Positions 31,552 through 40,334 of a DNA stretch of 64,000 nucleotides are shown piece after piece. The first letter of the stretch is position 1; each line of letters opens with the position of its first letter. Under the pieces are notes generated by a model. It ran no database searches. It had not been told where the DNA came from and was given only the letters and a program-made list of their open reading frames with translations. The position numbers and the translations under genes are program-made. Source of the stretch: Paucidesulfovibrio longus DSM 6739 (lineage in GTDB: Bacteria > Desulfobacterota > Desulfovibrionia > Desulfovibrionales > Desulfovibrionaceae); the NCBI RefSeq assembly GCF_000420485.1, contig NZ_ATVA01000015.1:310001-374000 (forward strand), in the 5' to 3' direction.

Positions 31552-34500
31552 ATGCCGACCACTCTCGAACGTGAATTCGCCGCCACCGCGCGCAGCTTCC
31601 TGCTGACCTTCATCTGTCTCGGACTCGTCACCGCGGCGGGAGTCTATACCCTCTACCGCCAGGATGTCCGGGAAAAGCACACTCTCTTGCTCCGGGAGCA
31701 GACCACCGCTGTCAATGCGCTCTCCCGTTCCGTGATCCGGGAGATGCGCAGCGTCTACCACGACCTCCGCCTGCTCGCCAGCCACTACGAGCTGCACGAT
31801 TATTTGATGACGGGAAAAGCCGAGTCCAGCCACATGCTCGAATCCGAGATGATCGCCCTGGCCAGGATAACGGATTTCTACGACCAGATCCGGCTGCTCT
31901 CCCCCGACGGAATGGAACTGGTGCGCATCAATTACGACAACGGCTCGCCCAAGGCAGTGCCGCACGACCAATTGCAGAACAAGGCCAGCCGCTACTATTT
32001 CCAGGAAACCGCAAAGCTTCAACAGGGAGACATCTACGTCTCCCCCTTCGACCTGAACGTGGAGCACGGAAGGATCGAACAGCCCATCAAGCCCATGATC
32101 CGCGTGGGCATGAGCCTGCGCGACAAAAACGGCAAACTCCAGGCCGTACTGATCCTCAACTACCTGGGCCAGCGTCTGCGCGACGCCGTGCGCAGGACCG
32201 CGCTCCGCGCCAGCGCCGTGCCCATCATGCTCAACAAGGACGGCTATTACCTGCTCGGCCCCAGCCCCCAAGACGAATGGGCGTTCATGTACGAAGGCCG
32301 CGAGACGCGCTCCTTCGCGCACGCCCGGCCCCAGGCCTGGGAACGTATCAGCAACACCTTCAACGGGCAGCTGGAAGAACCCGAAGGACTCTATACCTAT
32401 TCCACGGTTTTCGCGGCTCCTCCCGCCGCAGGAGCGCGCCGCGGCCTGGACGCGCGGCAATGGAAGATCCTCAGCTTCGTTCCGGCCAAGGTGATGAACT
32501 TCCACAAGGAAAGGCAGGAAAAATACGCGACCCTTTTTCTCGGCGGCCTGCTCATATCCCTTTTCGCCGCGTCCATGCGCGCACGGCTGGTGCGCTCCAA
32601 CGTCCGCGCCCGCGCCCACCTGGAAACCGCCCGCCAGCTCGCCGTGGACGCCAACAGGGCCAAGAGCGAATTTCTGGCGCGCATGAGCCATGAAATCCGC
32701 ACGCCCATGAACGCGGTCATCGGCATGACCTATCTGGCCCTGCGCACGGAGCTGACCCCCAAGCAGCAGGACTATCTGCGCAAAATAGATCTCTCCGCCA
32801 AATCCCTGCTCGGCATCATCAACGAGGTTCTGGATTTCTCCAAGATCGAATCCGGCCAGCTCGTGCTCGAACACACCGAGTTCCAGCTCGACAACGTGGT
32901 CAACAACGCCGTGAGCATCGTGAGCCTGAACGCCGAGGAGAAAGGCCTCGAACTCGTGGTCATGGTCCGCAGCGAGGTGCCGAACAATCTCCTTGGCGAC
33001 CCGCACCGGCTCGGCCAGGTTCTGCTCAACCTCCTGGGCAACGCCGTCAAATTCACCGAGAAAGGCGAAGTCCTCCTGAGCGTGGACCTCATTGAGCGCC
33101 ACGGGGACACCGCACTGCTGGAATTCGCGGTGCGCGACACGGGCATCGGCATCACGCCGGAACAGGCCAAAAATCTCTTCCACCCCTTCAACCAGGCCGA
33201 CGGCTCCATCACCCGCAAGTTCGGGGGAACCGGCCTGGGCCTGACCATCAGCCAGCGCATCGTGGAGCTGATGGGCGGCGAGATAACCCTGGACAGCGCT
33301 CCCGGCAAGGGCAGCCGGTTTTCATTCCGCATTTCCGCTGCAATCCAGCCCGGAAAAACCAGGGACCAGTTTCTATCGCCCATTGAAATGCGCGGGATGC
33401 GCATCCTCGCCGTGGACGACAACAACATCTCCCGCGTGGTGCTGACCAAGATCCTGGAAACGTTCGGATTTCGTTGCGACGCTGCGGAAAGCGCGTTCAC
33501 GGCGCTTACGCTGCTCGAAAAGGCCCATACGGAAAACGATCCTTACCGCCTGGTCGTCACGGACTGGCGCATGCCCGGCATGGACGGACTCGACCTGGCC
33601 GCCAGGATAAAGAGCGACGAAAAGCTCTCCCCTCCTCCCAAGGTGATCATGCTCACCGCTCACGGCCAGGACGAAGCCATGCACCGGGCGGAGCAGCTCG
33701 CCCTGGACGGGTTCATGCTCAAGCCCTTCAACCGCTCGATCCTCTTCGACACCATCATGTCCCTGTTCATCAGCTCCAAAACGGAAGATACGGGGGTACC
33801 CCCGCGCGTTCCGCGCCACCAGAACGCCGCGGGCGTGCCCGACGCCATCCAGGGCGCGCATCTGCTGCTCGTGGAAGACAACGCCATCAACCAGCAGGTG
33901 GCGCTGGAGATTCTGGAAAGCGCGGGACTCAGCGCAGATGTGGCCGCAAATGGAGAAGAGGCCGTGCGCATGGTCTTCGAAAAGCATTACGACGCCCTGC
34001 TCATGGACATCCAGATGCCGGGAATGGACGGATATCAGGCCACGCGCATGATCCGCTCCTCGCCGGAATTCGACCGCCTTCCCATCATCGCCATGACGGC
34101 CCACGCCCTCAGCTCGGACATGAAGCGCTGCCATGCCGCGGGCATGAACGACTACGTGGCCAAGCCCATCGATCCGGACAAGCTCATGCTCACCCTCGGC
34201 CGCTGGGTGGATGTGAGCAGGCCGCAAGAAAACGTGCACCCGCGCCCCACGGAAGACGACGACATCTGCGAAGGGGAGCTCTGCGTCCAGGGCGTGGACG
34301 TCCACGGCGCCCTGACCCGCCTGCGGGGCAACAAGAACCTGCTCATCCGGCTCTTGCGCAACTTCGCCTCGGAATGCGGCGACATGCTCCAGGACATCGA
34401 GCGCATGCTCGGCAAGGGACAGCGGGCCGGAGCGCAGCGGCAGATACATGCGCTCAAGGGCGTGGCCGGAAACATCGGCGTGGTCGCCGTGGAAAAGGCG

Positions 34501-34743
34501 GCAACGCGGCTTGAAGGCCTGCTCAAGGATCCCGAAGCCGACCTCGGCTTTTCCCTGGCCGAATTGCAGGAAGCCATCGCGAGTTTCGTGCAGGCGATGC
34601 AACTCGCCCTTCCGGACGTGGCCTCCCCTGCTTCGCCCCAGAAAAGAAGGACTCCTCCGAACTTCGAGGAATTGCCGGACTTGCAGGGTCCGCTGGACGA
34701 GCTTCGAGAGCTCATCGAACTCGCGGACATCTCTACGGAATAA
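31552..34743 (+). CDS. Hybrid sensor histidine kinase with dCache-like, HisKA-HATPase, two REC and Hpt domains; C-terminus apparently frameshifted
   Basis: The 1063-residue phosphorelay kinase has a TM helix at about 15-37, a periplasmic dCache-like sensor to 325, a second TM near 330-345, then HisKA with His380 ([12 protein letters not shown]), HATPase ([22 protein letters not shown]), REC1 with Asp671 ([11 protein letters not shown]), REC2 with Asp819 ([10 protein letters not shown]) and Hpt with His966 (HALKGVAGN). The frame stops at 34743, but the alternate frame beginning at 34740 codes 47 more residues and stops at 34881-34883, overlapping the next ATG as ATGA. The encoded tail looks like the normal extension of such proteins, so a frameshift or sequencing error is likely. 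The ligand is unknown. Confidence 0.9.
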
Positions 34744-34879
34744 TCGACAATCTGCGCGCGGTGCATCCGGATCACACGGATCGGTTGGCGCAAAAACTTG
34801 CGGCCTTTGATTTTCCCGGTGCGCAAGAAGAGCTGGAATACATCATCGCCGAATATGAAAAACGGAGCGAAGCCAGACA

Positions 34880-36064
34880 ATGACTGAAAAGGCACGCATT
34901 CTCATCGTGGACGACCAGCCGTTCAACATCGAAGTGCTCAGCGAGCTGTTGCTCGTGGATTTCGATATCAGCGTCGCTGTCAACGGGCCCGACGCCCTGG
35001 AGCTGGTCTACGGAAAAACGCCGCCGGACCTGATCCTGCTCGACATCATGATGCCCGGATTGGACGGGTACTCCGTATGCCGTCTGCTCAAGTCGGACCC
35101 GCGCTCGCGCGACATTCCGGTGCTCTTCGTCACGGCCATGAGCGCCCCGGAGGACGAAGCCCACGGCCTGGAACTCGGAGCCGTGGACTACATCACCAAA
35201 CCCTTCAGCGCGCCCATCGTGCTTGCCCGCATCAAGACGCACCTGTCCATGGCCAGCGAAAAGAAAATGCTCGAGCTGGCGGTGCGCGAACACACACGGG
35301 AACTGCGCCAGGCCAAGGAGGCGGCGGAGCAGGCCAACAAGGCCAAGAGCGCCTTTCTCTGCAACATGAGCCACGAACTGCGCACGCCGCTCAACGGCAT
35401 CATCGGCATGACCCAGCTTCTGCTCGGCAACGACCCCACCACCGAGCAGGAAGCCTTCCTCATGGACGCGCTCGGAGCGGCCCAGCATCTGCTCGCCCTG
35501 GTGGAAGACCTGCTCCAGCTCTCCTCGCTGGAATCGGGCAACGTGCCGTTCAGGCCCGCCGAGGCCAGCCTCGAAGAATCGATCACTCCGCTTCTCGCCA
35601 TGTACGGCAAGCAGGCCATGGACAAGGGGCTGGAATTCTCCTGGGACATCGACCCCTCCGTTCCGGACCGGCTGTTCATGGACGCGCCCAAGGTGCGGCA
35701 GGTGCTCATCAACCTGCTCAACAACGCCCTGCGCTTCACCATGCACGGCGAGGTGGAGATGACCGTCTACGAGTGGGCCTGCGAAACAGCCCCGGACGGG
35801 AAAGGCCCCGCCGGGCTGGTGCTCTGCTTCCTCATCCGCGACACGGGCATCGGCATTCCCCCGGACAAGCTGCACGACATCTTCGAGGCCTTCAGCATCG
35901 GCGAGGACTTCATGACCAAGCGGCACAGCCGGGCCGGACTCGGACTGGCCATAGCCAACCAACTCGTCAAACGGATGGGCGGAACCATCTGGCTGGAAAG
36001 CGTCGTGGGACAGGGCTCGAACGTCTTCTTCACCGTGCCCTGCCGACCTTGCGGCGAGGAATGA
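34880..36064 (+). CDS. Receiver-histidine kinase hybrid (REC-HisKA-HATPase), cytoplasmic
   Basis: The 394-residue protein has an N-terminal REC domain ([20 protein letters not shown], phospho-acceptor Asp55 in [14 protein letters not shown], '[11 protein letters not shown]'), a linker helix ([19 protein letters not shown]), HisKA with His165 ([15 protein letters not shown]), and HATPase ([22 protein letters not shown]). It has no membrane segment. The start ATG overlaps the stop of the alternate frame of the upstream kinase. The pair is probably a relay: the upstream Hpt or REC communicates with this REC domain (inference). No DNA-binding regulator lies nearby. Confidence 0.9.
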
Positions 36065-36747: not shown

Positions 36748-36928
36748 GGTGTCCTCCAGGTTCATTCGTCGGCCAGGGGGCGGGGTCGCGGTCGTCGAGC
36801 ATCTCGAACTTGGCCTGCTCCACGTTGCGGAACTGGCCGCTGCGCAGGCCCCAGCCCAACAGGACCAGGCCCACGCTGATCACGAACGCGCTGAAACCAA
36901 GCAGCACCCACATTCCTTCAGGCATCAT
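36740..36928 (-). CDS. ccoS: CcoS-like cbb3 oxidase assembly protein
   Basis: The 62-residue one-helix protein has MWVLLGFSAFVISVGLVLLG followed by 'WGLRSGQFRNVEQAKFEMLDD', matching the CcoS pattern (helix, then R-S-G-Q-F-x-x-x-E... and a C-terminal D-D). CcoS is needed for heme or copper insertion in cbb3 oxidases. Its ATG-ATG start overlaps the ccoO stop (ATGA) and its stop overlaps the CcoP-like start, so all are one coupled operon. Confidence 0.75.
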   Translation of the reverse strand: MMPEGMWVLLGFSAFVISVGLVLLGWGLRSGQFRNVEQAKFEMLDDRDPAPWPTNEPGGHRD

Positions 36929-38934
36929 TCCCCCTTTTCCGAAGCGTTCAAGGACTTGGTCACGTAGGCCGCGGCGTCCCAGATGTCGCCGTCCGGCAGC
37001 AGCCAGCGGAACGGGGCCATGACCGTTTCGGGCACGCCCTCCATGGTCCGCCAGAAGACGTAGCCCATGCCCATCCCGGCGGGATAGGGCGCGGGCGCGG
37101 CAGCCATGCTCATGGCGGTTCCGGGGCCGCCGCCCTTGCCGTCGTCGCCGTGGCAGGTGGCGCAATAGACGCCGTAGACTTCCTTGCCGTGCTCCGTCGA
37201 TATCTCATGCCCTTCGCCGAGCCAGTTCTCCTCGCTCAGGGTCATGTAGTCCGCGGCCACCTTGCCCGTGGCGAAAACGCTGAGGGCCACCTTGCCCGTC
37301 TGCATCTCCCCGTTGCCGGACATGTCCATGGAACCGGACATATCGCCCATATCGCCCATGCCGCCCATGAACGTATCCATGAGGTACTTGATCAGATCCC
37401 AGCGTTCCCGCCAGGGCAGGAACTCGCCCCAGGCGGGCATGGCCGTGTCCTGGATGCCGTAGCTGATCTTGGCCATGTGCTCGCCCAAGGATTCCGGCCC
37501 CATCTTCTCGTCGCGCATCTCGCGGAAATCAGCGGGCTTTGGATCCAGAACCTGTCCGGCCCAGCCCTTTCCGTCTCCGGCGGGACCGTGGCAGCGGGAA
37601 CAGTTCACCAGGAAGGCTTTCTTGCCCCGCTCGTAGTTCACGCCCTGCGGGTATTTCTGCGACTTGAACACTTCGGGGAAAACGAAGTCCTCGCCTTCGG
37701 CCGGAGCCTTGGGAGCCTTCTCCGTCTGCGTGAACACCGTGCGCACGTAATGCACCACGTCCCAAATCTCCTTCTCGCCGTATTCCACCTTCCAGGCGGG
37801 CATGGCGCTCCAGGGCAAGCCCTCGCTGACGCGCCAGAAGTAGTCGTCGTCCTTGAAGTCGGGCTTGTCCACGGTGCCGTAGCTGCCGTCGCCGAAGTCC
37901 GGCGGCCTGGGCTGGAGGAAATCGGCGTAGGGGCCTTCTCCCCTGCCTGCCGGGCCGTGGCAGACCAGGCATTCGCGGGTGAAGATGTGCTTGCCGTTTT
38001 CAAGCGAGGCGATGCTCTGCGGCTCCGGGTTGGTCATGCCCGCATACGGAGCGGGCACGTCGCCCTCATCCGGGTCGCGCATCGCGGGACGCGAGAAGAT
38101 GCTGCGCACATAGCGGATGACGGCCCAGCGTTCATGCGGGGTCAGGCTTTCCTTCCACGGCGGCATGACCGTGCCCTGCACGCCTTCGGAAACATGCCAG
38201 TACCATTGCTCGGCGGGCATGTTCTTGAACGGCTCCTGCTTGAAGTCCGCCGGGGTGACCACCAGCGTGCCGCCGTAGGAACCCAGGCCGTTTCCGGAGC
38301 AGCCGTGGCAGGTCATGCAGCGGGAAACATACAGTTCCTTGCCTTCCTGCAATCCAGCCGCTTCCCAGGTGGGCCAGCCCGCGGCAACGCCTTCGGCCGG
38401 AACCGCCAGCGCCGGAGCCGGGTCAGGATCCGTTTCCCCCTCGTAGGGCGCGGGAGGCTCGATCATGCGTTCCATGGCCACACGGTCCCCATGATCGAAG
38501 AGATAATGCGAAACCGCTTCCAGATCCTCCTCCGAGAGGAAGGAGTAGCGCGGCATGATCGAAAGCGGGGAATACTTGCGCGGGTTCTTGAGGTGTTCGA
38601 TCTCCCAGGTGCGGCTGCGCTTGCGGCCCACGTAGGAAAGGTCCGGCCCGGTGCGTTCCGAGCCCAGGGTCAGAGGGCTGTCGAACACGAAATCGCCGCC
38701 GTTCGAAACCGGCCCCATGGCGTTGTCGCTCTCGCGGACATACTGCGTATGGCAGTAGTTGCAGCCGTTGGAATAATAGACCTTGTGCCCGCGCTCCTGC
38801 ACCGCGTCGTAGGGATGCGCGATGATGGACTGCTTCGGAGCCCACATCATGTCCGGCATGAACACGACCATGAGCACCATGATGCTGAAGACCACCATCC
38901 CGCCGAAAACAGTGAAGCGGAAAGTCATCTTCAT
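36925..38934 (-). CDS. ccoO: Cytochrome c oxidase cbb3 subunit II (CcoO) fused to four extra c-type cytochrome modules
   Basis: Residues 1-165 are CcoO/FixO: N-terminal TM helix, heme c site CNYCH at 58-62, and 'GPDLSYVGRKRS'. A normal CcoO is near 200 residues with one heme. Here the chain runs to 669 residues with four more sites: CMTCH 206-210, CLVCH 322-326, CSRCH 445-449 and CATCH 591-595, each followed by M-P-x-W-like axial Met regions (VMPPW, AMPAW). It faces the periplasm and feeds electrons to CcoN. It replaces the heme-bearing half of CcoP, since the separate CcoP-like protein has no heme (inference). It overlaps ccoN by 4 bases. Confidence 0.88.
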   Translation of the reverse strand: MKMTFRFTVFGGMVVFSIMVLMVVFMPDMMWAPKQSIIAHPYDAVQERGHKVYYSNGCNYCHTQYVRESDNAMGPVSNGGDFVFDSPLTLGSERTGPDLSYVGRKRSRTWEIEHLKNPRKYSPLSIMPRYSFLSEEDLEAVSHYLFDHGDRVAMERMIEPPAPYEGETDPDPAPALAVPAEGVAAGWPTWEAAGLQEGKELYVSRCMTCHGCSGNGLGSYGGTLVVTPADFKQEPFKNMPAEQWYWHVSEGVQGTVMPPWKESLTPHERWAVIRYVRSIFSRPAMRDPDEGDVPAPYAGMTNPEPQSIASLENGKHIFTRECLVCHGPAGRGEGPYADFLQPRPPDFGDGSYGTVDKPDFKDDDYFWRVSEGLPWSAMPAWKVEYGEKEIWDVVHYVRTVFTQTEKAPKAPAEGEDFVFPEVFKSQKYPQGVNYERGKKAFLVNCSRCHGPAGDGKGWAGQVLDPKPADFREMRDEKMGPESLGEHMAKISYGIQDTAMPAWGEFLPWRERWDLIKYLMDTFMGGMGDMGDMSGSMDMSGNGEMQTGKVALSVFATGKVAADYMTLSEENWLGEGHEISTEHGKEVYGVYCATCHGDDGKGGGPGTAMSMAAAPAPYPAGMGMGYVFWRTMEGVPETVMAPFRWLLPDGDIWDAAAYVTKSLNASEKGE

Positions 38935-40334
38935 GACGCCACCTCCTGTCCGGCGCCCGGCTCAGCCACAGGCAGGCCGGGTTCCACGATGGGCTTGCCC
39001 GCGAAGTAGGTCAGCAGCACGTTCCAGGAAAAGAGAATGAAGCTGATGACCACGAGCACGCCGCCGATGGCCCGCAGAGCCATGAACGGCCGCAGGCCGG
39101 GCAGCACGCTCCAGATGGGCAGGCCCTGGTGAATCCAGGCCGAACCCTGCACGATTCCGGTCAGGAAGAATCCGCCGAAGAAGAAAAGAAAGCCGATGAA
39201 ATAAACGCTGTACTGCACGTTGACCAGCGCGCGGCTGTAGAGTCCGCGTCCGAGTATGCGCGGCATGATGTAGAAGATGCCGCCCATGACCGTGGAGGCC
39301 GCGAAGAACATCAGCGCGAGGTGCGCGTGGCCGGGCACGTACTGCGTGAAGTGCGTGAGGTTGTTGATGGCCCGCAGGGACTGGTGCGACCCCTGGTAGG
39401 AGACGAGCACGTAGGCGGCCCAGCCCGTGACGGCGAAGCGCAGCGGAATGCTGGAGAAGAAGCGGTTCCAGTTGCCGCGCATGGTCAGGAAGATGTTCAT
39501 CATGATCGCCAGAACCGGGATGACCATGCCGATGCTCTCGGCCACGCCGAAGGTCTTCAGCCAATAGGGAATGGGCGACCAGAGCAGATGGTGCGCGCCC
39601 ACGCCCGTATAGAAGAAGATGATGCCCCAGAAGCCCACCAGGGACAGCACGTGGCTGTAGAGCGGGGTGCGCGTGTCCAGGGGGATGAGGTAGTAGATCA
39701 CCGGAAGCAGGCCCGTCGTGAACCAGAGGCCCAGGACATTGTGGCCGTAGAACCAGTTGTAGAAGGAATCGTTGATGCCGACCGACGCGCCCGCGGGCAC
39801 GTTCCACATCACGTTGCCGATGAAGTAGAGGATCGGCATCCAGATGACCGTGCCGGTGATATACCAGAGGCTGACGTAGAGCTTCTTTTCCACCCTGTGG
39901 GCGATGGTCATGTAGATATTCAAAAGATTCAGGAGCAAGACGATCATCACGCCCACGTCAACGATCCAGGGAAGTTCCGCATATTCGCGGCTCTGCGTGT
40001 TGCCGTTCAGTATGGACGCTATGCCGAGCAGCATGGCCGCGTTCCAAAGCAGCATGCAGACGTTGCCGAGCTTCTCGCTCCAGATTCTGCGTCCGGTGAG
40101 CTTCGGGACGATATAGTACCATGCGCCCATCATGCCCATGGAAAGCCAGGCGAACATCACCGTGTTGGTATGCGCCTGGCGCAATCTGCCGAAAACGAGC
40201 CAGGGCACGCCCTGGAACATGTCCGGAAATACGAATTCCAGCGCCAGGACAAGACCCATGAGGGTTCCCAGCACCACCCAGAGGCTTGCGGAGAGCATGA
40301 AATTCAGGCTCGCACTGTTTTGTTTGTCGAACAT
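38931..40334 (-). CDS. ccoN: cbb3-type cytochrome c oxidase catalytic subunit I
   Basis: This is a 467-residue polytopic heme-copper oxidase subunit with about 12 helices. His ligands are visible: 'RLRQAHTNTVMFAW' (low-spin heme), 'NWFYGHNVLGLWF' (CuB region), 'GAHHLLWSPIPYW' (CuB His-His), and 'YVPGHAHLALMFF' (heme). It reduces O2 in the inner membrane and pumps protons. It lacks nothing obvious. It is the first gene of the ccoN-ccoO-ccoS-ccoP-like operon. A high-affinity oxidase in this setting is consistent with oxygen detoxification or micro-oxic growth. Confidence 0.95.
   Translation of the reverse strand: MFDKQNSASLNFMLSASLWVVLGTLMGLVLALEFVFPDMFQGVPWLVFGRLRQAHTNTVMFAWLSMGMMGAWYYIVPKLTGRRIWSEKLGNVCMLLWNAAMLLGIASILNGNTQSREYAELPWIVDVGVMIVLLLNLLNIYMTIAHRVEKKLYVSLWYITGTVIWMPILYFIGNVMWNVPAGASVGINDSFYNWFYGHNVLGLWFTTGLLPVIYYLIPLDTRTPLYSHVLSLVGFWGIIFFYTGVGAHHLLWSPIPYWLKTFGVAESIGMVIPVLAIMMNIFLTMRGNWNRFFSSIPLRFAVTGWAAYVLVSYQGSHQSLRAINNLTHFTQYVPGHAHLALMFFAASTVMGGIFYIMPRILGRGLYSRALVNVQYSVYFIGFLFFFGGFFLTGIVQGSAWIHQGLPIWSVLPGLRPFMALRAIGGVLVVISFILFSWNVLLTYFAGKPIVEPGLPVAEPGAGQEVAS

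Follow-up and report, generated by a model that had tools for sequence, protein, structure and literature searches.

Organization of the hybrid kinase locus

The window analysed here is a stretch of 64,000 nucleotides from Paucidesulfovibrio longus DSM 6739. It contains a hybrid sensor kinase gene followed on the same strand by a second signalling gene, and the features at their junction are the following:

31552–34743, forward strand: hybrid sensor kinase open reading frame, 1063 residues, assigned from Pfam matches, its translation and alignment to full-length orthologues
34726–34770, forward strand: stretch to which alignments assign a net loss of 16 bases, the exact breakpoints not being fixable from one genome
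34740–34883, forward strand: tail remnant in the −1 frame, 47 residues, ending at a TGA codon (34881–34883)
34880–36064, forward strand: next gene, encoding a protein with receiver, HisKA and HATPase_c domains (Pfam)

The kinase translation comprises a sensor domain (PF21623), HisKA, HATPase_c, two receivers and an HPt domain (residues 933–1010), followed by the start of a tail. HisKA, HATPase_c, the receivers and HPt were all matched by Pfam, and the HPt histidine motif HALKG is present. The frame closes at a TAA codon (34741–34743). The −1 frame runs on to a TGA that overlaps the ATG of the next gene (ATGA, 34880–34883). An earlier note, made from the sequence alone, had described the kinase stop, the 47 codons of the −1 frame from 34740 and the ATGA overlap, and we found all three as described.

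The kinase frame runs through the tail in related genomes

We compared three genomes of the genus, namely the source genome (G000, a 19-contig draft), G001 and G002. In both of the other genomes one uninterrupted kinase frame spans the tail (1111 codons in G001 and 1128 in G002, counted from stop to stop). The G001 protein ends in ...HDELHELLSNYPTSQGANQ and the G002 protein in ...KREVEALLDENARDQGVGQ; both genes finish with the same AATGAC overlap and are followed by the same REC-kinase gene. The earlier note had called for such a comparison, its reading being at risk if homologues stopped at the equivalent of 34743 and had no tail. Neither orthologue does so, but three of the 29 homologue matches that we read to their stop codons (L019, L029 and L031) do stop shortly past the HPt domain. 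The other 26 extend well past it and were aligned as tails, 25 of them being matched by the tail profile described below (A1). The tail is thus usual but not universal.

The −1 frame encodes the ancestral C-terminus of the kinase

Profile A1 was built from 17 tails, all taken from other genomes. The 47 residues of the −1 frame scored 29.9 bits against it, compared with a maximum of 4.5 bits for shuffled versions (2000 shuffles, 1481 of which were scored), and they matched profile positions 38–78, or about 34–80 by extension. When the whole genome was searched with the profile, the −1 tail of the kinase was the best match (E = 1.6e-5), ahead of a paralogous kinase (G000:C3:64107–64319, E = 0.00125) and of a weak third match (E = 0.49). 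The openness of the frame was rejected as evidence for a remnant, since an open frame of 47 codons was also found in 437 of 2000 dinucleotide-preserving shuffles.

One-to-one comparison gave weaker results because the tails diverge fast. With the 47 residues alone against 119 relatives, the G002 tail was matched at E = 0.32, and G001 had none at E ≤ 1. Taken by itself, the upstream half of the tail, which is still in frame, scored only 3.4 bits against a 26-row tail profile, and its placing relies on a gap-free alignment to the two orthologues. On these sequence comparisons, we take the −1-frame residues to be the ancestral C-terminus of the kinase.

Sixteen bases are missing at the junction

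Relative to the orthologues, the kinase frame stays aligned as far as the motif ADISTE, and further on the alignment resumes in the −1 frame. The segment before the break is collinear, without gaps, with LEALLELLAQADISAK in G001 and LQKLLELLEVSDFSAK in G002. The segment past the break, RLAQKLAAFDFPGAQEELEYII, was aligned by eye, also without gaps, with RMEKHMEIFDLAAAHDELHELL and RIGEHLAAFAFNAAKREVEALL, and the profile alignment agrees. To quantify the difference we used two landmarks (profile nodes 24 and 58), the D of 'AD' and the second F of 'FDF' or the corresponding residue. In G001 and G002 these are separated by exactly 35 residues, that is 105 bases each, whereas here they are separated by 30 residues encoded in 89 bases, one base being common to both frames. 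The net shortage with respect to both orthologues is therefore 16 bases (five residues plus one base), a number not divisible by three. It could also represent an in-frame change of 15 bases combined with a separate one-base change. A one-base indel as the sole cause was rejected, as the landmark spacing is five residues short.

The same difference is seen with Desulfovibrio sp. isolate STF2_139, whose orthologous hybrid kinase (JAQVYA010000029.1, L103) we take as the G002 copy (G002:C141). This orthologue shares 64% identity with our kinase over the last 694 in-frame residues and 52% over the N-terminal 328, and it has the same next REC-kinase gene and ATGA overlap; its tail, however, is complete and in frame, with 35 residues between the landmarks instead of 30.

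We then surveyed the spacing more widely. The 182 loci collected, minus six from the source genome, gave 125 tail-profile alignments, 122 of which span both landmarks. The spacing was 35 residues in 56 copies, 36 in another 56, 37 in eight, 39 in one and 44 in one. These HPt-ended kinases, from several phyla by record title, have an HPt domain, a linker and a helical tail as here, but, in contrast to the 30 residues found here, the landmarks are never closer than 35 in the 122 measured copies (95 of them distinct, the safer count since some loci overlap), in a profile search that favours well-preserved domains and may under-sample very short tail variants.

Given the 16 missing bases, no shift of frame yields a normal tail. 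The proposal of the earlier note that the alternate frame is the real C-terminus thus holds for the ancestral gene, as seen from the two in-frame orthologues with the same ATGA, but not for the present one, in which changing frame gives no normal tail.

The DNA around the junction was inspected for sequences prone to slippage. Homopolymers of at least four bases are absent from 34700–34780, and we found neither direct nor inverted repeats of at least eight bases at 34680–34800. The only XXXYYYZ sequence in 34512–34750 is TTTCCCT at 34550, which is out of phase, in agreement with the earlier remark that no slippery heptamer was evident; none thus precedes the stop in the right phase.

The tail is a helical module that follows the HPt domain of many hybrid kinases

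The tail belongs to a helical module of about 65–80 residues found after the HPt domain and a linker in many hybrid kinases (34690–34883 here; loci L003–L030, L064–L093 and L103–L182). Of 348 genomes searched in the order, 166 had a tail match at E ≤ 0.01 and, going by record titles, the module also occurs in other phyla. A receiver-type gene starts within −10 to +80 bases of the tail end for 47 of 94 distinct tails. In 16 of these 47 pairs the two codons overlap, the start beginning one base ahead of the stop (15 ATGA and one GTGA). Together these counts suggest that the kinase/receiver gene pair is conserved. Two loci, L016 and L023, apparently carry two tandem tail modules after a single HPt domain; both copies in L016 were matched by the profile.

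We could not name the module from domain databases. The 47 residues had no Pfam match at E ≤ 0.1, and the 17 tail sequences gave only scattered, weak, single-member matches in Pfam (best E 0.0029) and NCBIfam (best E 0.0054), so that naming the tail by either database was rejected for lack of a convincing match. An AlphaFold2 model of the HPt domain and tail of the G002 orthologue (L103; mean pLDDT 88.7, pTM 0.57) places tail helices at model positions 131–145, 151–156, 159–165, 167–178 and 182–200, after the HPt domain. A Foldseek search of the PDB with this model returned 121 matches at E ≤ 10, none of them at E ≤ 0.001; among the best 50 of the 121, most of the top-ranking ones are HPt structures of about the length of the HPt part, and two are designed repeat proteins. 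According to the model, the residues missing here would correspond approximately to positions 153–157, that is, most of helix 151–156, and a −1 shift would thus not restore a normal tail.

A small out-of-frame deletion probably truncated the kinase

Small out-of-frame deletions, as at the ends of recent pseudogenes, have three ordinary hallmarks: a loss not divisible by three, an early stop and a remnant recognizable in another frame. All three are also seen in this kinase; the difference from the ordinary case is that here only the last small domain is gone and the catalytic parts stay. In kind, the break would be nothing out of the ordinary, an out-of-frame deletion close to the end of a gene. 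We consider it probable that such a deletion, small, recent and real in the strain, broke the kinase tail, although the lack of a direct repeat of at least eight bases at 34680–34800 counts against it, as one would have supported slipped-strand deletion. A search of the literature turned up no account of an event of this kind for the gene.

Formerly, the kinase gene would have ended at 34883, its stop codon sharing the ATGA with the start of the next gene. The comparison shows a net shortage of 16 bases around 34726–34770, which we interpret as a deletion; this would have removed five residues from a tail helix and shifted the remainder of the tail into another frame, leading to the stop at 34743. 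The product would be devoid of the small helical tail after HPt and, as read from the sequence, would retain the sensing and autokinase domains, both receivers and HPt. The phosphorelay probably still works, since its domains precede the break. Conversely, tight translational coupling with the downstream gene is probably weakened, because 136 bases now separate the kinase stop from the next start codon.

The main alternative is that the strain's gene is intact and that about 16 bases were dropped in assembly, for instance where a short tandem repeat collapsed. The −1 frame, with its recognizable tail, ancestral overlap and lack of any further stop, is what an intact gene would be expected to leave, and G000 is a 19-contig draft, the one draft genome for the species. 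Against this, a loss of 16 bases away from any homopolymer does not resemble a typical one-base miscall, and the neighbouring syntenic frames are unbroken. Greedy placement on the window gave 11 largely non-overlapping G002 frames (stop-to-stop frames, not curated genes); two are the kinase, whose G002 copy lies across two sequence pieces, and the nine others align, with no frame change, along nine tenths or more of the G002 frame, a sign that errors are not widespread in this part of the assembly. The GC3 of the tail remnant (34740–34880) is 0.53, lower than in any 47-codon window along the kinase (n = 1016, minimum 0.68), and could reflect early decay; we gave this argument little weight because the G002 tail dips too (0.60, compared with 0.71 for its gene). 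We therefore regard an assembly fault as unlikely, and a deletion in the sequenced strain as the more likely of the two.

The other explanations fare much worse. The last 40 residues or so might form a separate small protein, made by re-initiation (e.g. at GTG 34761) and packing onto the kinase. An open reading frame does exist from this GTG to 34883, but judging from the orthologue model the piece would not include the first tail helices. Moreover, an HPt-type motif precedes the match by at most 230 residues, in frame with it, in 88 of 97 distinct profile-matched stretches (the remaining nine include one locus cut mid-gene and one HPt itself), and such a split gene is very improbable. Even less probable is a strain-level switch, in which a short stretch of the tail would be lost and regained, so that the population would switch the tail domain on and off and thereby retune the phosphorelay output. 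Programmed −1 frameshifting or transcriptional slippage, yielding a fraction of longer kinase, is the least credible and was rejected: the −1 frame is indeed open as far as the ancestral stop, but near the kinase stop there is neither an in-phase XXXYYYZ sequence nor a homopolymer, both orthologues are in frame and need no shift, and the shifted product would not be of normal, conserved length, its tail remaining five residues below the shortest of the 122 measured copies.

With an out-of-frame deletion as the favoured explanation, the kinase gene should be flagged in the annotation as truncated by such a deletion, neither as recoded nor as ending normally. If the deletion is true, the strain offers a natural test of the role of the unnamed module that follows HPt.

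A possible multi-haem oxidase-like protein in the same window

Further along the window, on the reverse strand (36925–38934), lies a gene whose translation, of 669 residues, holds five CxxCH haem motifs within a single chain. We take this protein to be cbb3-oxidase-like, of the CcoO type, and the adjoining gene (38931–40334, reverse strand) is presumably CcoN-like. The 669-residue protein is possibly a multi-haem fusion.
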